DNA of 37,509 bases, from positions 1 to 37,509 of the forward strand of contig JAYELL010000056.1 of the NCBI GenBank assembly GCA_034717495.1, read 5' to 3'. The notes under the pieces are model-generated. The model saw only the letters and a program-made list of their open reading frames with translations, was not told the origin of the DNA and ran no database searches. Below are positions 23,141 to 32,874 of the stretch, piece after piece. Position 1 is the first letter of the stretch. Each line of letters opens with the position of its first letter. Source of the stretch: Chloroflexota bacterium (GTDB lineage Bacteria; Chloroflexota; Anaerolineae; JAAEKA01). The translations under genes and the position numbers were made by a program.

Positions 23141-25594
23141 TTATGGTTGCGGTTTCTCAACCTTGACCTGTCCCAAAATGATGCCCTTGTCGCTGAAATC
23201 AACCTGCAGCCGGTCGTTGGTAGCCGGGTCATAGATGCCGATTTCGACAAAGTAGACTCCGGGCGGCGCGTCTGGCGGCAGGGTCAGGGTGTAATGGTCC
23301 TCGATCTGCTGGCCTGGCTGCCAGCCGGAGGTCGGCGCAGCTCCCAACTGCGGCATCTCGTCCGACTGGGCCCATACAGATGAAGGTGGCAGGACCAGAT
23401 GGGTGAAGACCACGTAATCCTGGGCTGGAACCGCCAATGCCTGCCACCAGAGGGTTAATGCAAGAGACTCGCCGGGCGCCATGACGCGCCGGTCGAAATC
23501 AAAGCCGAGCAGGGCAATCTGATCATCAAAGTTGATAGAGACCTGGTTGGGGAATTTGCCCGCTTCGCTGCGGGGCAACAATGCAACCTGGCCGACCGTC
23601 CAATGGTCATAATCGCCCACAGTGAGTCGTTCGTTTGAGTCGTAATCGTAAAGGCCGACGTTCACTTTTAATCGATGGGGTGCAGGGGCGGTTTCGGGGA
23701 TTCGCACGACATGTTGATCGGGGATCAGGACGCCCAGGGGCCAGTCGCTGGTGGCAAGGGCACCTTCGCCAGGATAGCTATCCTGCTGGGCCTGCAGGAT
23801 ACCATTTTCATCCACCAGGTGCACGAATACGCTATAGTCAGCGGGCAGTGATTGCATTGCCTGCCAGTAGAGGGTCAAATGCAACTCCTCGCCCGGGCGC
23901 GCCTCCTGGTTTTCGAGGTGATACCCAGCCAGCCTGATCTGGTCGCCGAAGGTGGCGTCGACCGCGGTAATACCTGCTGGTTTGGATCGCATCATGGGGG
24001 GCGCAGCATAGGCGGGAGCGATCCATCGGAAGGGAGCCAACGCAGCAAAAAGGAACATCAGGAGGGTCAGGACGGCGACAAGACCGGTCTGCCAGCTGCG
24101 CGGGACCCAGCCTGCCAGCCCGTAGGCGATGAGAACAGCTGCGGCGCTGATCGCCGGGAACAACAACCGGCCCTGGGGATAGCGCATCTGGGCCCAATTG
24201 AGCAGGGCCAGCAGGATCACGACACACCAAACCACCAGGAGGAATAGCTGGAGCCATGTGTGGCGGGGTAACCTGAGGGTATACCTATCAGCGGAAGGTC
24301 GACTGGAAGTGCGACGCCGCGAGCCCTGGTTGCCCGGCGTCGCGGGGGATCGTCCGCCAAACCTGGGTGTTCGTTGTTTGGGTCCACGCCTGCGGCCAGC
24401 TATGAAACGCAGGGGCCACACTACCAGCAAACCGATGGCACCAAAGAGGGCAATCGCTGTGTAGAATGAGTAGATCCATTTATCGGCCGGTACGTTGAAC
24501 CAGCCGAAAACAGCCCAGGCCGATTGCCAGACACCGGGGGCCCGCGAGAGCAGCTCATCAACTGTAGGGGGTTCAGCCCGGCGCGGCAAGATATCAAACA
24601 TGGCCTTGAGGCCCAGGGGGTCACCGTAAAGCTGCCAGTTGCGCAAGTACCACCAGCCGGCAACCGCCAGCACTACCACACCGACGATCAAGGCCCATCG
24701 CAGTAATTCACGCAGGGATTCCCGGCGGATCGAGATAATCAGCAGGGTCAGCCCCGCCAATCCCACCAGAGCCAGACCGCTGAGCTTTGCCAGGGCAGCG
24801 ATCCCCACCAGCAGGCCGAGAAGGGCCAGTTGGGCGGTGGTCGGCGCTGCCTGGCGCGGGGTCACGCGCAGTGCGTTATCCTGGCTTCTCACAGAGGTAT
24901 CTTCGACCGCAACCGTGCCACTTCTGAGGGCAGGGGTAACGGGGATGGTGCTGCCAGGGGGTGCCGGTTCCTGACGGCCCAACATGATGATTATCAGCCA
25001 GATTGCCGAAGCGCTGGCGGCAATGACGAGACTGTCGTTGTTGACGGCCGCGCTCAGGAAAAGGAACTGGGGGTTGAAGGCGACCAATGCGGCTGCCAGG
25101 CTGGCAAGGGCCTGGCGGTTGGGGAAAATGGCCAGGGAGGTGCCGTAGGCTGCCAGCACCGTCACCGCTCCAAGCAGGAGTGAAAAAAAGCGAGTCAGGT
25201 GGGCTGCCAGTGCTACTCCCTGCCAGGGCCAGGAATCTGCGGGTCCGTGCACGATAACATTCTTGTTGCCCGATGACCCGGGTTGCCCGATGGCTGCGTG
25301 GGGATTGTAGCGAATGATCTCATCTGCATTGTCGGTTGGGATTCTGCCGGTCAGCAGTGCCGCTGTCAAATAATAAAGAGGCGGCTGACTGCCTTCCTGG
25401 TGCCAGGGGGCTTCCCCTACCTGTTCCGGCCTTGGTAACCCCCTGTCCTCGACCAGCCAACGCACGTATTCATAGTGCCAGACCTCGTCCGGCGATTCAA
25501 ATAGGGGATTGATCACACTGTAAATGATACCCAGAGCCAGGAACACAGCGAGGATCAATACTATGGGCCAATGGCCGCGAATAGCGGACTTCAT
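23141..25594 (-). CDS. GT39-type membrane glycosyltransferase with two C-terminal beta-sandwich modules
   Basis: This protein has 817 residues from the ATG at 25594. That start overlaps the upstream stop codon as ATGA and has GAGGTGG just before it; a start 13 codons earlier is rejected. A first membrane segment is followed by SPDEVWHYEYV, the acidic GT-C motif. About ten hydrophobic segments follow, with a low-complexity basic loop (RRRGPKQRTP) in the middle. After the last membrane segment two copies of the GY-PG-WQA-HL-W-P-G-YDP-RL module lie at about 554-662 and 694-797. The enzyme probably moves a sugar from a polyprenyl-phosphate donor outside the membrane. The GT2 and UPF0104 genes directly upstream would supply and handle that lipid-linked sugar. 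Confidence 0.84.
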   Translation of the reverse strand: MKSAIRGHWPIVLILAVFLALGIIYSVINPLFESPDEVWHYEYVRWLVEDRGLPRPEQVGEAPWHQEGSQPPLYYLTAALLTGRIPTDNADEIIRYNPHAAIGQPGSSGNKNVIVHGPADSWPWQGVALAAHLTRFFSLLLGAVTVLAAYGTSLAIFPNRQALASLAAALVAFNPQFLFLSAAVNNDSLVIAASASAIWLIIIMLGRQEPAPPGSTIPVTPALRSGTVAVEDTSVRSQDNALRVTPRQAAPTTAQLALLGLLVGIAALAKLSGLALVGLAGLTLLIISIRRESLRELLRWALIVGVVVLAVAGWWYLRNWQLYGDPLGLKAMFDILPRRAEPPTVDELLSRAPGVWQSAWAVFGWFNVPADKWIYSFYTAIALFGAIGLLVVWPLRFIAGRRRGPKQRTPRFGGRSPATPGNQGSRRRTSSRPSADRYTLRLPRHTWLQLFLLVVWCVVILLALLNWAQMRYPQGRLLFPAISAAAVLIAYGLAGWVPRSWQTGLVAVLTLLMFLFAALAPFRWIAPAYAAPPMMRSKPAGITAVDATFGDQIRLAGYHLENQEARPGEELHLTLYWQAMQSLPADYSVFVHLVDENGILQAQQDSYPGEGALATSDWPLGVLIPDQHVVRIPETAPAPHRLKVNVGLYDYDSNERLTVGDYDHWTVGQVALLPRSEAGKFPNQVSINFDDQIALLGFDFDRRVMAPGESLALTLWWQALAVPAQDYVVFTHLVLPPSSVWAQSDEMPQLGAAPTSGWQPGQQIEDHYTLTLPPDAPPGVYFVEIGIYDPATNDRLQVDFSDKGIILGQVKVEKPQP

Positions 25595-26691
25595 GCATCC
25601 ACCTCGCTGCTCATAGCGGGTTCCCTGAGGCACATCTTTTTCTGTGATGATTCAGAGGCTCGTCTGTCGTGGAAGCGCATCCACAGCAGGGATGCGCCAC
25701 CAAAAACCAGCGATGCGAGCAGGGTAAGGATATTGACGGCAAAGCCACTGGCGATCGCCAGCGCGGTCTCCATGCCCACCAGGCTGAAGCCAAGGGCCCA
25801 ACCTGCCTCATGGGCGCCGAAGCCACCGACCGTGACGAAGGGTATGGCTTTGGCCAACATGGCAAAGGTGCCGCCCACGATGACGAGGGGATATGCCTGA
25901 GGCAGGCCGATAGCTTGCATGAAGGCGGCAAACCAGGCAAAGGTGGCAAGCCATGTCAGCAAAGACCAGCCGAATGTCAAGCCGTAGGTGCGAAAGGAGC
26001 GCATCTCCTCGAATGCCTCGACCGCCCGCCAGCCGGCACGCAACAAGTACTTCACCCAGCGGAGCTTTTCGACCCCGAGTTTCTGCATCAGTCCCTGGGC
26101 AAAGCGCATGATTTGCCGTCCCAACCAGGGCATCGCGGCCAGGATCACCAGCGAGACCAAAAGCAGCGCTGCCACGATCGAAACGACCGATTCAGCGCGT
26201 TCGCTCAGCTTATTAAGATTCAGCAGGGCAAAACCGACAAAGAGCACTGCTACAGCCAGATAGTCAAAGACTCGGGCCACGATAAGGGCAGCGCTGCTTT
26301 CGCCGACCGGCACAGCATGGCGGCGCACCATAAAATAGGGGAAAGAGAGCTCGCCACTGCGAGAAGGCAGCACATTGTTGAACAGACTCAGGGCAAACAT
26401 CTCGGGCAATATGCGCAGAGGTGAGTACCAGGATTGGCTGGCATGTTCTTTCTGGCTCTCGCTCAAGGGCGAACCTGTTCCGTCGTCGTAACCATCCAGA
26501 TCCATGAGGACGCTGAATCGAAAGGCGCGGAGGATGTTGGTCAGCACATAAAAGCCGAAACCGATCAGTAGCCAGTATGGATCGATGTTTGACAAAAGAC
26601 GCCATACGGTCGTCGGGTCGATCTGCCAGAGAAGCAGAACCACCAGAAGCAACGCCAACAGATAGGGTACCAGACGCCTGGCTTTAGCCAT
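25591..26691 (-). CDS. UPF0104 / lysylphosphatidylglycerol-synthase-type membrane protein
   Basis: This 366-residue integral membrane protein has about eight hydrophobic segments. It has the family pattern of RAFRFSVL after the second segment, LPSRSGELSFPYF (as in the flippase-like LPG synthase TM region), and GGFGAHEAGWALGF near the C-terminus. This family occurs next to polyprenyl-phosphate glycosyltransferases and is thought to be involved in lipid or lipid-sugar translocation. The start overlaps the end of the GT2 gene by 8 bases, and the stop overlaps the GT39 start by 4, so all three are translationally coupled. There is no aminoacyl-transferase domain, so it is not a full MprF. Confidence 0.85.
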   Translation of the reverse strand: MAKARRLVPYLLALLLVVLLLWQIDPTTVWRLLSNIDPYWLLIGFGFYVLTNILRAFRFSVLMDLDGYDDGTGSPLSESQKEHASQSWYSPLRILPEMFALSLFNNVLPSRSGELSFPYFMVRRHAVPVGESSAALIVARVFDYLAVAVLFVGFALLNLNKLSERAESVVSIVAALLLVSLVILAAMPWLGRQIMRFAQGLMQKLGVEKLRWVKYLLRAGWRAVEAFEEMRSFRTYGLTFGWSLLTWLATFAWFAAFMQAIGLPQAYPLVIVGGTFAMLAKAIPFVTVGGFGAHEAGWALGFSLVGMETALAIASGFAVNILTLLASLVFGGASLLWMRFHDRRASESSQKKMCLREPAMSSEVDA

Positions 26692-27625
26692 CGTGCCTCA
26701 ACCGTTTGACTCGCAGCAAGATATCCTCGCTCAGACGGCGGTTGACGGCGATCAGATCGGCAAGCAGCCCGATCAGAATGACCTGGAATCCAGCAATCAG
26801 CAGCACGGCCGCAATAATTACCGACTGCACGTGGCCCGTGCCTTCGCCTTGGGTAACAAAATAGACGTAGCGCAGGGAGAGCAGAAAGCCGCCGAAAAGC
26901 AGAATCAACCCGGCGATCACGAAAACACGCAACGGCTGATACATGGTGTAGATGCGAACGATGGTCTCGCCAGATCGCCGCAGGTAGCCAGGCAGGCTGC
27001 TAAACAGCCTGCTCTCCCGGGTGACCGGATTGGTGCCGACCGGCACATGGGTCAGTGCCAGCCGCTGTTTGCCTGCCTGAATGATCGTTTCCAGGGTATA
27101 GGAATAATCGGAGACAACGTTCAGGCGCATGGCTGCCTCCCGGCTGTAGGCCCGAAAGCCGCTGGTGGTATCGGGTATATCGGTGTCCGACGCCTGGCGC
27201 ACTACCCAGCTGCCCAGGCGCTGGAGGCGTTTTTTGGTGGTCGAAAAGTGGGGAATCGTGTCGATTTGTCGATCACCGATGACGATGTCGGCCTGTTCAG
27301 AGAGGATCGGTGCCACCAATTTGCTGATATCGCTACCGGCATACTGATTGTCGCCATCGGTGTTGACGATGATGTCAGCGTCCAGGCGAAGGCTGGCGTC
27401 CAGGCCAGCCGAGAACGCCGCCGCCAGCCCACGATTTTGTCGAAACCGTACGATGTGTTCCACGCCAAGCTCGCGGGCGACCGCGACTGTCCGATCGGAA
27501 CTTCCGTCATCGATGACAAGAATCTCTACGTTGTCAATGCCATCGATGGAACGGGGAATGTCCCGAACGGTGGCAGGCAACGTGGCCTCTTCGTTCAGAC
27601 ATGGTATCTGGACGATGAGCTTCAT
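26684..27625 (-). CDS. GT2 polyprenyl-phosphate glycosyltransferase (DPM/DPG synthase-like)
   Basis: This 313-residue enzyme has a GT-A domain with PCLNEEATLPATV at the start, VIDDGSSDRT (Asp pair), and NTDGDNQY as the DxD-type metal motif. After residue 230 two hydrophobic segments anchor it in the membrane, as in GtrB and DPM1-like enzymes that make polyprenyl-phosphate hexoses. It lies 21 bases after the L,D-transpeptidase stop and is coupled to the UPF0104 gene. The likely job is to make the lipid-linked sugar donor used by the downstream GT39 enzyme. The sugar itself cannot be told. Confidence 0.87.
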   Translation of the reverse strand: MKLIVQIPCLNEEATLPATVRDIPRSIDGIDNVEILVIDDGSSDRTVAVARELGVEHIVRFRQNRGLAAAFSAGLDASLRLDADIIVNTDGDNQYAGSDISKLVAPILSEQADIVIGDRQIDTIPHFSTTKKRLQRLGSWVVRQASDTDIPDTTSGFRAYSREAAMRLNVVSDYSYTLETIIQAGKQRLALTHVPVGTNPVTRESRLFSSLPGYLRRSGETIVRIYTMYQPLRVFVIAGLILLFGGFLLSLRYVYFVTQGEGTGHVQSVIIAAVLLIAGFQVILIGLLADLIAVNRRLSEDILLRVKRLRHDG

Positions 27626-27646: not shown

Positions 27647-28414
27647 TTAGCCTTCACGTCCGGTGCCACCGTCCCATGGCAATACGACGATGGCTACACC
27701 TGCCGGTCCCCAATTGGAAAACCAACTTGCTTGCTCGGGCGCGAGCCGAATACAGCCTCGGGATGCCGGAAAGGTCCCCAGATCGGGCATTCCCTGATAA
27801 AGTTTCTCACCGCTGTTGGTGAGGGTATAGGGTAAACTATGGATCAGGATGGAGCCACTTGCCTTGAAAAGGAACCAGGCATCGTCGGCCATGACTCCGT
27901 TTGCGGCGAAGGTACCCCAGAAATCTCCGATCTCGCCACTCCAGGCTGGTGTGAACCAGCCCCGATCAGGGTCGCCGGTGCTTATATTCAGTTCCTGCAG
28001 CAGATAGCCATCCTGCACAATACTCATGCGCTGGGAGTTCTGGTTGATAATCACGAAGGAGCCGGCGGGGTCAATGCCGTGGTCTTCGGCAACCTCGATC
28101 AGGAACGGTTCCGGGGTAGGAAGCACCGGGGAAGGGGTGGCCAGTGGTGGGGCATGGCTGTCTTCATCGAGGGGCGCCGATGTAGGCTGGGGAGTCCAGG
28201 TTGCCAGGGATGTCGCGGTTGGCGTGGGAAAAGGCCGAGCGGTGGGTGTGGACATCCAATTCTCACCGACGTAAAACTGCCCCACGACGGGGGCCAATGC
28301 CTGCCCCTCCCGTGAAAACAGGCTGATGGCTTGCCAACTGACCGCAAGGGCGAATCCGAAGAAAACCAGCAGAATGGCAGCTCGGCGCAAATACCGCAAC
28401 AGGCGATCCGACAT
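27647..28414 (-). CDS. L,D-transpeptidase (YkuD domain), membrane-anchored
   Basis: This 255-residue envelope enzyme has a basic N-terminus and a membrane segment (12-30). A Pro/Thr-rich linker (55-103) follows, and the YkuD domain runs from about 118 to the end. His192 (in ILIHSLPY) and Cys221 in ASRGCIRL form the catalytic signature. The family cross-links peptidoglycan or attaches proteins to it, acting outside the membrane. Its ATG overlaps the stop of the preceding small gene (TGATG), so translation is coupled. It separates the Cas4-N-like gene from the glycosyltransferase block. Confidence 0.88.
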   Translation of the reverse strand: MSDRLLRYLRRAAILLVFFGFALAVSWQAISLFSREGQALAPVVGQFYVGENWMSTPTARPFPTPTATSLATWTPQPTSAPLDEDSHAPPLATPSPVLPTPEPFLIEVAEDHGIDPAGSFVIINQNSQRMSIVQDGYLLQELNISTGDPDRGWFTPAWSGEIGDFWGTFAANGVMADDAWFLFKASGSILIHSLPYTLTNSGEKLYQGMPDLGTFPASRGCIRLAPEQASWFSNWGPAGVAIVVLPWDGGTGREG

Positions 28415-28677
28415 CAGGATGCGCCTCCCAGGGCCATCAGCAGAGCAACCACAGCGGTGAGAAGGGCAAGAGTTCCCAGGAGGAAAGCCAGACGGCGCTG
28501 GCGATGATAGCCTGCCACGGAACGAGCATGCCGGTCATGTTCATCCTGGCCAGCCTGGAGGGAAGCCACGTTATCAGATGGCACATTTCGGACCCGACGG
28601 AGCCACCAGGCCCGCGAGCAATACAGGTATTCGCCAATCTCGCTGGCCCGTAAAATGCTGTCGTTATCCCTGCTCAT
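28414..28677 (-). CDS. Small membrane protein resembling the N-terminal half of Cas4
   Basis: This protein has 87 residues from the ATG at 28677; a GTG at 28692 would add five, and neither has a clear ribosome site. The opening ASEIGEYLYCSRAWWLRRV matches the first Cas4 element, where a lone cysteine (in YCSRAWW) binds the Fe-S cluster. A Gly and the His of GQDEH fit the first nuclease motif (G-x-x-x-H) of the Cas4/RecB family. A hydrophobic segment (about 64-84) ends the protein. The rest of a nuclease is absent. The complementary part, with a membrane segment at its own N-terminus, is encoded at 22428-22958. It overlaps the translin-like gene upstream and the L,D-transpeptidase downstream. 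Confidence 0.62.
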   Translation of the reverse strand: MSRDNDSILRASEIGEYLYCSRAWWLRRVRNVPSDNVASLQAGQDEHDRHARSVAGYHRQRRLAFLLGTLALLTAVVALLMALGGAS

Positions 28678-29320
28678 TGGAGGGTTGATCACTCATAACC
28701 CGGGCTTCAAAGGCCAGGAGGGCCTCTCGCATCTGTTCCTGCCGGAGGGCCATTGTCAGATCACCGCGGGTGCGTTCCAGCGTAGCCCGGAGCACGTCGG
28801 TTTGGCGCCGCAGTCCGCCGGTGATGGCATCGGGAAAATCGATGGTGATATGCAGGCTGTAGATGTCGTCCATGATTGCCAGGTAGGGCTCGGCATCTTC
28901 GACGCGGCCCCGGCGAATCAGATCCAACACGAAACGCCGCATCTCAGTGGCTGCCTCCGACGTCCCTTTGAGATAACTGCCCGACGGCACGCCCAACTCC
29001 TGGGGGGTCGGCAATGGATTGCCCGCGACGAGCGCGTATACCACGTGGGCCTCGGTCAGCTCCTTGAGAGCATCCTGCGTATAACCGGTATAAAACAGGT
29101 CCGGCATTGCCTCCAGGTCGGCGACCATCAGAGCAGCGGCCTCGCGTGCCTCGGCCAGCAGCTCGCTGGCCGTCTCCAGGTCGTGGCGATGAACGGCGCG
29201 GATGCTGTGCGCGCAAAGGCGAATCAGCTCGCGGGAACGCCGCAAGGTTCTATCACGCACATCGTTGCGTTCGGTGAGATCGGAACGTATCGATTCAATG
29301 ATGTCGGCAAGTTGATCCAA
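28664..29320 (-). CDS. Translin-family protein
   Basis: This 218-residue all-helical protein carries the translin/TRAX signature DFPDAITGGLRRQTDVLR (161-178) followed by TLERTRGDLT. In TRAX the RNase site uses an Glu-x-x-Glu pair and a later Asp. Here LKELTEAHV supplies Glu87 and Glu90, and Asp161 or Asp164 is a candidate for the Asp, so the nuclease ligands may be kept. Translin-family proteins form octameric shells that bind single-stranded RNA or DNA. No signal or membrane segment is seen, so it is cytosolic. It lies 14 bases after the DUF3467 gene, and its 3' end overlaps the Cas4-N-like gene. The family is common in eukaryotes and patchy in archaea and bacteria. Confidence 0.8.
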   Translation of the reverse strand: MDQLADIIESIRSDLTERNDVRDRTLRRSRELIRLCAHSIRAVHRHDLETASELLAEAREAAALMVADLEAMPDLFYTGYTQDALKELTEAHVVYALVAGNPLPTPQELGVPSGSYLKGTSEAATEMRRFVLDLIRRGRVEDAEPYLAIMDDIYSLHITIDFPDAITGGLRRQTDVLRATLERTRGDLTMALRQEQMREALLAFEARVMSDQPSNEQG

Positions 29321-29334
29321 GATCGTTCCCTATC

Positions 29335-29721
29335 CTATTCACCCGACTCTGGCGGGGCTGAGTTCTCTTCGGGTTCGTCGTCGTCTTCGGAGCCAACGCT
29401 CCATTGCATACCGCCCAGGGAGCCTGATCCAGAATCGAAGGTGTTGCTCTGGCGATCGGGACCCGGTATTTTGCCGAAACGGCCTTCGAACTTTTCGAGA
29501 TTCTGTCTCAGGGCTTGCTGGACCATTTTGGCGGATGTGGGGGTGAGAACCACGCGGGCTTTGACCCGTCCTTTGGGCATACCAGGCAGCAATTGGGCGA
29601 AATCGATCACCACTTCATTGGGGGTGTGACTGATTACTGCAAAGTTGGCGTAGGTGGGGTCCAACTCCTGCGGCAGTTCCAGGTTGACTCGACGGGGCTT
29701 TCGTTTTTTTTCTTCCGCCAC
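29335..29721 (-). CDS. DUF3467-family protein
   Basis: The start is taken as the GTG at 29721, giving 128 residues, because GGAAGGA lies 7 bases upstream; a start 12 codons earlier has less support. The N-terminus is basic (EEKKRKPRRVNLELP). The DUF3467 core follows, with YANFAVISHTPNEVVIDFAQ and the KARVVLTPTSAKMVQQAL region (a conserved helix in the family). The C-terminal 35 residues are acidic and low-complexity. The function of the family is not established. It is the first gene of the minus-strand run and sits directly before the translin-family gene. Confidence 0.82.
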   Translation of the reverse strand: MAEEKKRKPRRVNLELPQELDPTYANFAVISHTPNEVVIDFAQLLPGMPKGRVKARVVLTPTSAKMVQQALRQNLEKFEGRFGKIPGPDRQSNTFDSGSGSLGGMQWSVGSEDDDEPEENSAPPESGE

Positions 29722-29793: not shown

Positions 29794-29863
29794 TAGAAGA
29801 GAGCGATTTGGCGAATGTTACCTCTACTTGGCAGTTAGCCATGTCAGACAGTACAATGGGAAA

Positions 29864-30160
29864 ATGGCCAAGCTAATGCCGGGCGCAGAGCCCTTTTTCT
29901 ACCCAGGAAACGATGTGGGTTGCCTGTTGATCCACGGTTTTACCGCAAGCGCCCAGGAAGTGCATGGCCTGGGGCGTTATCTTGCCAGCCAGGGCCTCAC
30001 CGTTCGAGGGTTACTATTGCCCGGCCACGGTACGCATCCTGACGACATGCTGAACGCCGATTGGCGGATGTGGTATGCGGCCGTGCGAATAGGGTACGAA
30101 GATCTCAGGCGGCGCTGTGATCAGGTCTTTGCCATGGGTTTGTCTGAGCGTCCTCTCTAA
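29864..30160 (+). pseudogene. Truncated alpha/beta hydrolase (carboxylesterase/monoacylglycerol-lipase type)
   Basis: Only the first 98 residues remain from the ATG at 29864; an upstream start at 29828 is possible. The piece holds FYPGNDVGCLLIHGFTASAQE, with the oxyanion-hole HGF, and GLLLPGHGTHPDDM, typical of CarEW/monoacylglycerol-lipase-type serine esterases. It ends in FAMGLSERPL: the nucleophile elbow GLSMGG is reached but broken right after GLS, and the stop overlaps the convergent P-type ATPase gene by four bases. The catalytic Ser would be the last usable residue, and Asp, His and most of the fold are missing. The rest cannot lie further on because the ATPase gene occupies that DNA. 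A deletion, or an assembly join, is likely. Confidence 0.75.
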
Positions 30161-32874
30161 ACTTCGCTCTCTTGCGATTCTCCCATCACCAGTCTGATGA
30201 TCCACTTGCCGATCTCGCCCAGGAAGAGCATGGATACTGCGACGGCGATGCAGATTACCCACTGTTGGCCTGTCAACGAGGTCGTGTCGAAGATGTTTTG
30301 GAAGAGGGGTAGTTCGGTTACCAACACAGCCATGAGGATCACGAAACCGTAGGTGAGAAGCAGTCGTTTGTTGGAGAAGGTCTCGTCACGGAAGACGGTT
30401 TCTGTGGGATGTCGCAGATTGAGCGCCACAGACAGATGGGAGAGGGAGAAGGTAATCAACGCCATGGTCTGAGCAATCATTGCAGAGGCGAAGCGGGTTT
30501 CGGCCCATGTGTATGTGGCCAGAGTAATCGCGGCCATGAAGAAGCCGACCAGAATCAGGCGGGCTCCCATGCGCTTGCCGACAAGCGGGTCGCTGGCCGG
30601 TCGCGGTTTTCGGTCCATCAATCCTGGCGAGGGGGTATCGAAGCCCAGGGCCATGCCGATGGGGGCGTCCACGAGAAAGTTCACCCAAAGGATCTGCAAG
30701 GGGGCAAAAAACGCCGTTCCGGCCACGTCGAAAAGCGAGGATCCCAGAAAGGTCAGGATGAAGCCCATCAGGGTTGCCATCTGGAAGCGAATATACTTCA
30801 AGAGGTTGTCGTAGATGCCGCGGCCTTGCTCCACCGCCACCACAATTGTGGCGAAATTGTCGTCGGTGAGGATCATTGCGGCCGAATCCTTGGAAACGTC
30901 GGTTCCGGTGATTCCCATGGCGACACCGATGTCGGCGTTCTTCAGCGCCGGCGCGTCGTTTACACCGTCGCCTGTCATGGCGACGATGTTGCCTTTTTCC
31001 TGCAGAATTTTGACCAGGCGAACTTTGTGTTCGGGAGCGACCCGGGCGATGACGCCGATTCCGTCGATCTCCTGTTTGGCCTCCTGGTCGCTCATGTGCT
31101 CGAATTCGGCGCCGGTGATGGCCCGTCCCTCGATACCCAACTGACTGCCAATGGCGGCTGCCGTGGTGGCATGGTCGCCGGTAATCATGCGCACCTGGAT
31201 CCCGGCGCTCTTGCATTCAGCGATGGCATCTCTTGCTTCGGGGCGAGGTGGATCGACGATGCCCGCCATGCCCAGCAAGGAAAGGCCTTCGATTTTCGAT
31301 AGCAGGTCATCGCTGTTGGCGTCGAAGGTCCGGGGATCGAAATCCTTTTGGGCGACCATCATGACCCGCATACCTTCACTGGCCAGGAGGTCGTTGCCTT
31401 CCATTACCCTGGCTTTCCGTTCATCGTCCAGGTCAACGAGTTGGCCGTTTCTGTCGAGGCTGTGGGAGGAAAGAGCCGTCAATACGTCCGGAGCGCCCTT
31501 GACGTAACAGCGGACCACCTCTTTTCCGTTATCGGTCATGTTGTGGAAGGTGGCCATCAGCTTATAGGCGGAGTCAAAGGGTACCTCGGCAATGCGGGGA
31601 TACGCCTGGCGGGTGCCTTCCACGTCGAGACCACCTTTGGAAGCAAGAACAACCAGCGCGCCCTCGGTCGGATCGCCAATCAGTTCCCCGTCCTTAACCA
31701 CGGCATCCGAAGCCAGGGCCATGGGCATGAGCACTGGCCCCAAATCATCTATTTCCTGACCACCGATTTGCTGGATCTGGCCGGTGGTGTCGTAACCCTC
31801 CCCGGTCACGTTCAGTCTGAAATCTGCGGTAAACAGAGTTTGCGCCGTCATCTGATTGAGGGTGAGGGTGCCTGTCTTGTCTGAACAGATGGCCGAGGTT
31901 GATCCCAGCGTCTCGACGGCCGGCAGGCGTTTGACAATGGCGTTGCGTTGGGCCAACTCGGAGGTGCCAATCGAAAGCATGGTGGTGATTACGACCGGCA
32001 TACCGGTGGGGATGGCAGCGATAGCCAGAGAAATGCCAACGACAAACAGCTCATCGATGGTCTCGCCTCGAGCAAGGCCGATGACCACAATGGCAACCAG
32101 GGCCAGTGCAGCGAGCCCGGCAATCATCAGGGTCAAGCGGTCGATCTGCTTGGTGAGAGGAGTCTTTTCCACCTCCGTCTTCTGAAGCATGCCGGCAATG
32201 TTGCCCACCTCGGTGTTCATGCCGGTTCCGGTCACCAGCATTTCACCGCGTCCTCTGGTGACGCTGGACTGCATGTAGGCCATGTCGATGCGGTCCCCCA
32301 ACGGTACATCGTCGCCGGTGACTGGGTCTATGCTCTTGGCCACCGGTGTGCTTTCGCCGGTCAGGGCCGACTCCTCGATCTCCAGGGCAGCGGCTATACT
32401 GAGACGACCATCAGCTGGAATTCGATCTCCGGCCTCGAAGAGCACGACATCCCCGGGCACCAGTTCTTCGGCCGGAATCTCAGTGATCTGTCCCTCCCGA
32501 CGTACTCTTGCATCGATCTGCAACATCTCCTTCAAGGAAGCGAGACTGGCCTCGGCCTTGGCTTCCTGGCGCATGCCCATGATGGCGTTGAAGATCGTGA
32601 GTAACACAAGGAGGGTCGCCGTGGCGATGTCCTGGATCGCCAGCAGACTGACCAGGGCCGCGCCCAGCAATACGATTTGCATGTAATCCCGGTATTGGCG
32701 CAGGAATGCTCGCCAGCGAGGTTCTGTTTCTTCCTCGGCCAACTGGTTGGGTCCGTAGGTCTGTAACCGCTCGGATGCCTCTGCCCCACTAAGGCCGATG
32801 GCTGGATCGACTCCCAGGGTTTTGGCCGTCTCATCGATGGTCAGCTCATGCCAGACCAGTGATTCGTCATGCAT
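30157..32874 (-). CDS. P2-like cation-transporting P-type ATPase with altered M4 site
   Basis: This 905-residue membrane pump has an N-terminal cation-ATPase region (WHELTIDETAKTLGVD), TGES (172-175), the phosphorylated Asp332 in CSDKTGTLTLNQ, and MTGDGVNDAPALKNADIGVAMG. It resembles calcium-type P2 ATPases overall. However, M4 reads IPTGMP (288-293), where SERCA and PMCA pumps have IPEGLP with the ion-binding Glu. In M6, WVNFLVD keeps Asn732 and Asp736 but replaces the Thr between them with Val. The M5 Asn and Glu of SERCA are not evident. The transported ion is therefore uncertain. The ATG at 32874 has AAGGA 8 bases upstream. The gene starts 39 bases after kbl and may be its operon partner. 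Confidence 0.88.
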   Translation of the reverse strand: MHDESLVWHELTIDETAKTLGVDPAIGLSGAEASERLQTYGPNQLAEEETEPRWRAFLRQYRDYMQIVLLGAALVSLLAIQDIATATLLVLLTIFNAIMGMRQEAKAEASLASLKEMLQIDARVRREGQITEIPAEELVPGDVVLFEAGDRIPADGRLSIAAALEIEESALTGESTPVAKSIDPVTGDDVPLGDRIDMAYMQSSVTRGRGEMLVTGTGMNTEVGNIAGMLQKTEVEKTPLTKQIDRLTLMIAGLAALALVAIVVIGLARGETIDELFVVGISLAIAAIPTGMPVVITTMLSIGTSELAQRNAIVKRLPAVETLGSTSAICSDKTGTLTLNQMTAQTLFTADFRLNVTGEGYDTTGQIQQIGGQEIDDLGPVLMPMALASDAVVKDGELIGDPTEGALVVLASKGGLDVEGTRQAYPRIAEVPFDSAYKLMATFHNMTDNGKEVVRCYVKGAPDVLTALSSHSLDRNGQLVDLDDERKARVMEGNDLLASEGMRVMMVAQKDFDPRTFDANSDDLLSKIEGLSLLGMAGIVDPPRPEARDAIAECKSAGIQVRMITGDHATTAAAIGSQLGIEGRAITGAEFEHMSDQEAKQEIDGIGVIARVAPEHKVRLVKILQEKGNIVAMTGDGVNDAPALKNADIGVAMGITGTDVSKDSAAMILTDDNFATIVVAVEQGRGIYDNLLKYIRFQMATLMGFILTFLGSSLFDVAGTAFFAPLQILWVNFLVDAPIGMALGFDTPSPGLMDRKPRPASDPLVGKRMGARLILVGFFMAAITLATYTWAETRFASAMIAQTMALITFSLSHLSVALNLRHPTETVFRDETFSNKRLLLTYGFVILMAVLVTELPLFQNIFDTTSLTGQQWVICIAVAVSMLFLGEIGKWIIRLVMGESQESEV

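Follow-up and report, generated by a model that had tools for sequence, protein, structure and literature searches.

The window analysed here, a stretch of 37,509 nucleotides from a Chloroflexota bacterium of the class Anaerolineae (contig JAYELL010000056.1), contains a series of genes on its minus strand coding for a DUF3467 protein, a TRAX/C3PO-type protein, two separate pieces of a Cas4-like nuclease (C4N and C4C) and, between these pieces, several envelope or membrane proteins (Table 1). One of the latter, of 830 aa, was judged by eye and is presumably a polytopic protein of the sugar-transferase type. The DUF3467 gene and the TRAX gene are separated by exactly 14 bases, and the TRAX and C4N genes overlap by 29 nt from the GTG start of C4N (28692) or by 14 nt from an ATG five codons later; both the gap and the overlap had been noticed in the initial annotation of this DNA. 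C4C lies on the same strand, five genes downstream, and is separated from the other genes by the 830-aa gene, which is absent between the two pieces in the closest relatives. The genes of the locus are probably co-transcribed as one apparent unit; scans for promoters and terminators gave scores hardly above those of shuffled sequences. The plus strand (29828–30160) codes for part of a carboxylesterase-like hydrolase, namely 110 aa of its N-terminus, and this frame ends shortly ahead of the expected nucleophile motif. The stop of this remnant, which is a truncated gene or a rearrangement junction, coincides exactly with the C-terminal end of a P-type ATPase gene (30157–32874, minus strand).

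Table 1. Genes of the locus, in order of transcription, with the matches on which each assignment is based.
Feature	Position	Strand	Evidence
DUF3467 protein, 128 aa	29335–29721	−	PF11950, E 2.5e-20, 72.8 of 25 bits (over cut-off)
TRAX/C3PO-type protein, 218 aa, TTG start	28664–29320	−	NF011160 and AfTRAX matches, AlphaFold2 and Foldseek
C4N, N-terminal piece of split Cas4, 92 aa	28414–28692	−	TIGR00372, positions 3–45
L,D-transpeptidase (YkuD domain), between C4N and C4C	27647–28414	−	PF03734, E 1.8e-12
Family 2 glycosyltransferase	26684–27625	−	PF00535, E 5e-25
Flippase-like protein (LPG synthase TM region)	25591–26691	−	PF03706, E 1.5e-32
Membrane protein, 830 aa	23141–25633	−	Open reading frame only
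C4C, C-terminal piece of split Cas4, 176 aa	22428–22958	−	TIGR00372 and PF01930, both over cut-off

The TRAX-type protein and its DUF3467 neighbour

The product of the TRAX gene matched NF011160 (NCBIfam PRK14562) over its full length with an E value of 5e-78, a score below the curated cut-off of that family, and it matched archaeal AfTRAX in the PDB with E 2e-17 in a sequence search and E 1e-35 when a profile from 57 relatives was used. The Pfam Translin model (PF01997) stayed under its cut-off (E 0.064; 13.7 of 25.9 bits); since the fold and the PDB profile match are decisive, this shortfall was attributed to the sensitivity limit of the model and not to a structural difference. The AlphaFold2 model (pLDDT 97) displayed the all-helical translin fold, and its top PDB matches in Foldseek were AfC3PO (3zc1; TM 0.78/0.90), NeC3PO and human C3PO (TM 0.77). 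These results bore out the initial assignment to the translin/TRAX fold, which had been based on the signature DFPDAITGGLRRQTDVLR (residues 161–178), and refined it to TRAX-type, not translin: the best match is the archaeal RNase AfC3PO and the catalytic acids are intact. The name under which NF011160 is listed at NCBI, "haloacid dehalogenase superfamily protein," is also unfitting, since the fold found by Foldseek is that of TRAX and not of HAD.

The Glu-x-x-Glu pair pointed out in the initial annotation corresponds to E87 and E90 (codons 29060–29062 and 29051–29053), and a second catalytic pair, unmentioned there, is formed by E122 and E126 (codons 28955–28957 and 28943–28945). Both motifs, E87xxE90 and E122xxxE126, align with the acids of archaeal TRAX, the predicted active site keeps all four (with Glu for Asp at 122), and the four residues are invariant among 138 relatives. 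Glu at position 122, where archaeal TRAX has its catalytic Asp, was found in 118 of 118 sequences from the class and in 20 of 20 from other classes of Chloroflexota; at the same position the AfC3PO–RNA entry 3zc0 has Ala, as read from the sequence of the entry. An Asp-to-Glu change fixed in each Chloroflexota TRAX tested poses a direct question for C3PO enzymology. The TRAX gene was present, nearly always in single copy, in 135 of 150 relatives from the class. Named relatives belong to Caldilineales and other Anaerolineae, and no TRAX was found on plasmids. Eubacterial proteins of the translin superfamily were reportedly covered by Gupta et al. in 2012.

As for the DUF3467 protein, its AlphaFold2 model (pLDDT 70) has a core of three strands and a helix. 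A fold search with this model gave nothing under E 0.001 and no PDB match, and its profile gave no meaningful match against the PDB.

Two complementary pieces of Cas4

The gene that follows TRAX had been taken for that of a Cas4-like nuclease. C4N is indeed a Cas4-N-like piece, but it was rejected as a stand-alone nuclease because the nuclease core is absent from it and resides in a separate membrane protein, C4C. C4N matched only the first part of the 180-position TIGR00372 model (E 1.7e-4, sub-threshold), and its profile matched residues 3–59 of the Cas4 crystal chain 8d3l. It carries the motifs YxxCxRxWW (Cys25, codon 28618–28620) and GxxxH (His52, codon 28537–28539), these residues being conserved in 110 and 107 of 111 relatives, respectively, and after them a membrane helix at about residues 68–88, as deduced from hydropathy. 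No relatives of C4N were confirmed in IMG/VR.

C4C, which was absent from the initial annotation, was first spotted by clustering the neighbours of 60 relatives. It exceeded the curated cut-off of TIGR00372 (positions 60–178; E 8e-19; 68.1 of 65 bits) and that of PF01930 (positions 53–158; 37.2 of 22.7 bits), and its profile matched 8d3l starting at residue 103; a search of this genome at a threshold as loose as E 10 brought up no PF01930 pieces besides C4C and C4N. The protein starts with a membrane helix (about residues 3–23), which is followed by GxPD (D64), ExK (E77, K79), QxxxY (Q96, Y100) and the cysteines C162, C165 and C171.

The two pieces cover complementary parts of TIGR00372 (positions 3–45 and 60–178) and match the same Cas4 chain. 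Across the pair, the four Fe-S cysteines are complete (C25 on C4N and the three on C4C), as are motifs I–IV of the PD-(D/E)xK nucleases (GxxxH, GxPD, ExK and QxxxY), and these cysteines and catalytic residues are near-invariant in 111 C4N and 128 C4C sequences. There is strong indication that one active site is common to both chains. Since it consists of two genes and not of a single polypeptide, the pair is a variant of Cas4 and no plain member of the family. The flanking charges (+2.3 for the N-flank of C4N and +2.9 for the C-flank of C4C) indicate, by the positive-inside rule, that the soluble parts of both proteins are probably cytoplasmic.

Among 150 genomes of the class, C4N was found in 107, C4C in 106 and both in 105, so that they co-occur in 105 of the 108 genomes having either. 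They lie on the same strand and at most 2.5 kb apart in 76 genomes from 32 families, and on different contigs in 27 further genomes; in the closed genome G015 both are retained about 0.5 Mb from each other. Class genomes with both pieces do not have them as a single polypeptide, except G109, which codes for a distant single-chain relative without a membrane insert. A further 80 named loci yielded no single-chain version. A natural C4N-TM-TM-C4C fusion of 339 aa, with a two-helix membrane hairpin in the middle of the frame, was detected in genome G169 (L207:3895–4914); in this single case the catalytic Asp is lost and ExK has become DIK, and in a sister genome (L208) the pieces are separate and similarly degenerate. 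Some copies of the pair may be non-catalytic, since a few lineages keep the cysteines and lose the catalytic residues. The C4C homologues of loci L205 and L206 retain the three Fe-S cysteines and have lost ExK and QxxxY, which suggests a non-catalytic role for a cluster-bearing C4C in lineages of this type. Mirror-tree correlations over 71 loci were alike for C4N-C4C (0.53), C4N-TRAX (0.49) and C4C-TRAX (0.56), and thus did not single out the pair.

A Cas4 of CRISPR adaptation was rejected, because no cas1 or cas2 adjoins the pair and its presence is independent of cas1 (59/46/19/26 over 150 genomes; Fisher p 0.15). This genome contains no cas1. CRISPR-type, single-chain copies of Cas4 appeared as separate and weaker matches, several of them adjoining cas1.

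Gene neighbourhood within and beyond the class

A gene-neighbourhood survey, which had been suggested in the initial annotation, was run over related genomes. C4N follows TRAX directly (≤300 nt) in 61 genomes from 27 families, DUF3467 directly precedes TRAX (≤300 nt) in 38 genomes from 17 families, and the order DUF3467-TRAX-C4N with C4C near was found in 11 genomes. Direct TRAX-C4N adjacency is expected by chance in about 5e-5 per genome, and the presence of both genes is associated across class genomes (p 2e-5); since the genomes counted are related, the adjacency is partly inheritance. TRAX occurs without C4N in 31 class genomes. The neighbourhood of TRAX, DUF3467 and Cas4 pieces is therefore conserved within the class, with the adjacency spread over many families and the predicted structure inside the translin/TRAX fold. 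This upholds the neighbourhood part of the nucleic-acid-processing unit originally proposed; its other part, a functional unit of TRAX and Cas4, went beyond these data, the genes being unlinked outside the class.

The proposed coupling to envelope genes is mostly local. The L,D-transpeptidase recurs downstream of TRAX, in 23 of 60 relatives, the order in the closest ones being TRAX-C4N-LDT-C4C. The flippase appeared in 1 of 61 loci and the glycosyltransferase, in this position, in the window only. Insertion of these two genes and the 830-aa gene between the transpeptidase gene and C4C is peculiar to the window among the loci compared, and the glycosyltransferase and flippase were rejected as parts of the system because neither is a recurrent close neighbour at this place. 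An SSB-like open reading frame was present in 11 of 61 loci, in some directly upstream, and one was confirmed as SSB. Loci L079, L080, L083 and L086 contain DUF3467, TRAX and then a protein of about 205 aa with predicted membrane helices, with a histidine kinase gene on the opposite strand; L083 has SSB upstream.

In other classes of Chloroflexota, C4N and C4C are adjacent and TRAX is found elsewhere in the genome. The pair was also detected in an Acidobacteria genome without a convincing TRAX (1 of 199 genomes, perhaps by transfer or mis-binning), and on plasmids of Bacillus subtilis and Paludisphaera. The pieces from the Bacillus plasmid match TIGR00372 positions 1–44 and 61–179, with the same split boundary; no Bacillus C4C was found in phages. 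Since the pair occurs in other classes, phyla and plasmids without linkage to TRAX, the two-piece form extends further than the association with TRAX and probably predates it. On the B. subtilis plasmid NRS6116_2 (L236:336–3657) the pair is flanked by a helicase gene, accompanied by a small gene, on one side and by an Hfq gene on the other, after which come thermonuclease and toprim genes; this cluster is possibly a Dna2-like unit. Marinobacter plasmids carry a divergent split version (L237:2481–2915 and L239:2019–2447), in which the upstream partner has a CFI-box-CTERM domain and not a plain membrane helix.

Proposed function and comparison with known systems

We consider it probable that the locus codes for a TRAX/C3PO-type endoribonuclease and a two-chain membrane Cas4-type nuclease, in one apparent transcription unit and with a likely housekeeping function. 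According to this model, the TRAX-type protein would be an octameric endoribonuclease. C4N, ending in its membrane helix, would contribute the motif-I histidine together with the first of the Fe-S cysteines, and C4C, beginning with a membrane helix, would supply the Asp, the Glu-x-Lys, the Gln/Tyr and the remaining three cysteines. With both soluble parts in the cytoplasm, as the positive-inside rule indicates, the helices would pair as a hairpin of two chains, with the Cas4 fold closing on the inner face of the membrane, where a [4Fe-4S] cluster and a PD-(D/E)xK active site would be built from both chains. The most likely job would be chromosomal housekeeping, in which nucleic acid (ssDNA, R-loop or RNA-DNA products) would be trimmed or cleared at the membrane, DNA being handled by Cas4 and RNA by TRAX. 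Cooperation of the Cas4 pair with TRAX is plausible; joint action of the pair with TRAX is speculative, and so is the proposed substrate. A broader and rather doubtful proposal is that an old, cross-phylum class of two-chain membrane Cas4 might, in Anaerolineae, join the TRAX-type RNase in a membrane-bound complex that processes DNA and RNA.

The two-piece Cas4 could be real and its neighbourhood with TRAX and DUF3467 a case of operon hitch-hiking in one class, with no shared pathway. Nearly an even chance is given to this explanation, which accounts for TRAX, DUF3467 and the pair being present yet unlinked outside the class, where looked for, for about 30 class genomes with TRAX and no pair, for the Acidobacteria genome, and for archaeal TRAX, which has SepRS and endonuclease V as its neighbours (PMC8762117). 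It accounts less well for an adjacency so far above chance and for the associated presence of TRAX and C4N, although both are partly due to shared descent. A defence module that attacks foreign nucleic acid at the membrane, during phage DNA entry or conjugation, would suit the location of the nuclease and the relatives of the pair on plasmids of several phyla, some of them conjugative. It is improbable, since in Chloroflexota the pair is widespread, apparently lies outside defence islands, is independent of cas1 and has housekeeping neighbours (by eye, SSB, HisRS-like, NAD-kinase-like and RecN-like genes; RseP-like in another class).

The weak scores of C4N alone against Cas4 models (E 1e-4) and the location of most catalytic residues on C4C would also agree with C4N being a small membrane regulator or anchor outside the nuclease and C4C acting alone as a truncated Cas4. 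However, the invariant residues of C4N are exactly the first cysteine and the GxxxH of Cas4, its profile aligns with the N-terminal part of 8d3l, it co-occurs with C4C almost without exception, both are fused in G169, and the pairing is repeated in other phyla, all of which makes such a role very unlikely. An assembly error, a frameshift or a decaying pseudogene, for which only the division of the gene speaks, can practically be dismissed: the split is at the same place in more than 100 genomes with membrane helices at both new ends, the motifs are near-invariant, other genes are inserted between the pieces, and the pseudogene reading was rejected because C4N and C4C are conserved as separate open frames.

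The preferred model, a TRAX-type RNase encoded beside a two-chain Cas4, has known counterparts for each component. AfC3PO from Archaeoglobus (3zc1) and NeC3PO from Nanoarchaeum (5jr9) share with the protein described here the fold, the ExxE and D/E-xxx-E acids and a TRAX-type chain of about 200 aa; they differ in the third catalytic acid, which is Asp in archaeal C3PO and Glu in all 138 relatives tested here. The association of archaeal TRAX with SepRS was already known (PMC5424206, PMC8762117); there the neighbours are SepRS and endonuclease V (PMC8762117), whereas here they are DUF3467 and the Cas4 pieces.

A two-chain, membrane-tethered Cas4, present across much of the phylum and on plasmids of other phyla, offers an object for testing the role of solo-Cas4. 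In addition, some short Cas4 or PD-(D/E)xK annotations miss the N-terminal piece, since it is encoded by an adjoining small "hypothetical" gene. To our knowledge, work on Cas4 has dealt almost entirely with its part in CRISPR adaptation as a nuclease, and no role has been established for solo-Cas4; we also know of no membrane helices in the Cas4g/Cas1 fusion. That fusion (NF049935, PDB 7mi4) is homologous to the pair in the Cas4 core and differs from it in being CRISPR-linked and a single chain with Cas1. Solo-Cas4 is monophyletic in many Chloroflexi and lies outside CRISPR loci (PMC5704561); the main text of that work contains neither the word "split" nor the word "truncated", and no description of a two-piece or transmembrane solo-Cas4 was found in the literature searched, which is not proof of novelty. 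All Cas4 motifs and the four Fe-S cysteines are common to the pair and the Cas4 family (TIGR00372, PF01930 and the solo-Cas4 of PMC5704561), and what distinguishes the pair is its division into two genes, with a membrane helix on each chain at the cut.
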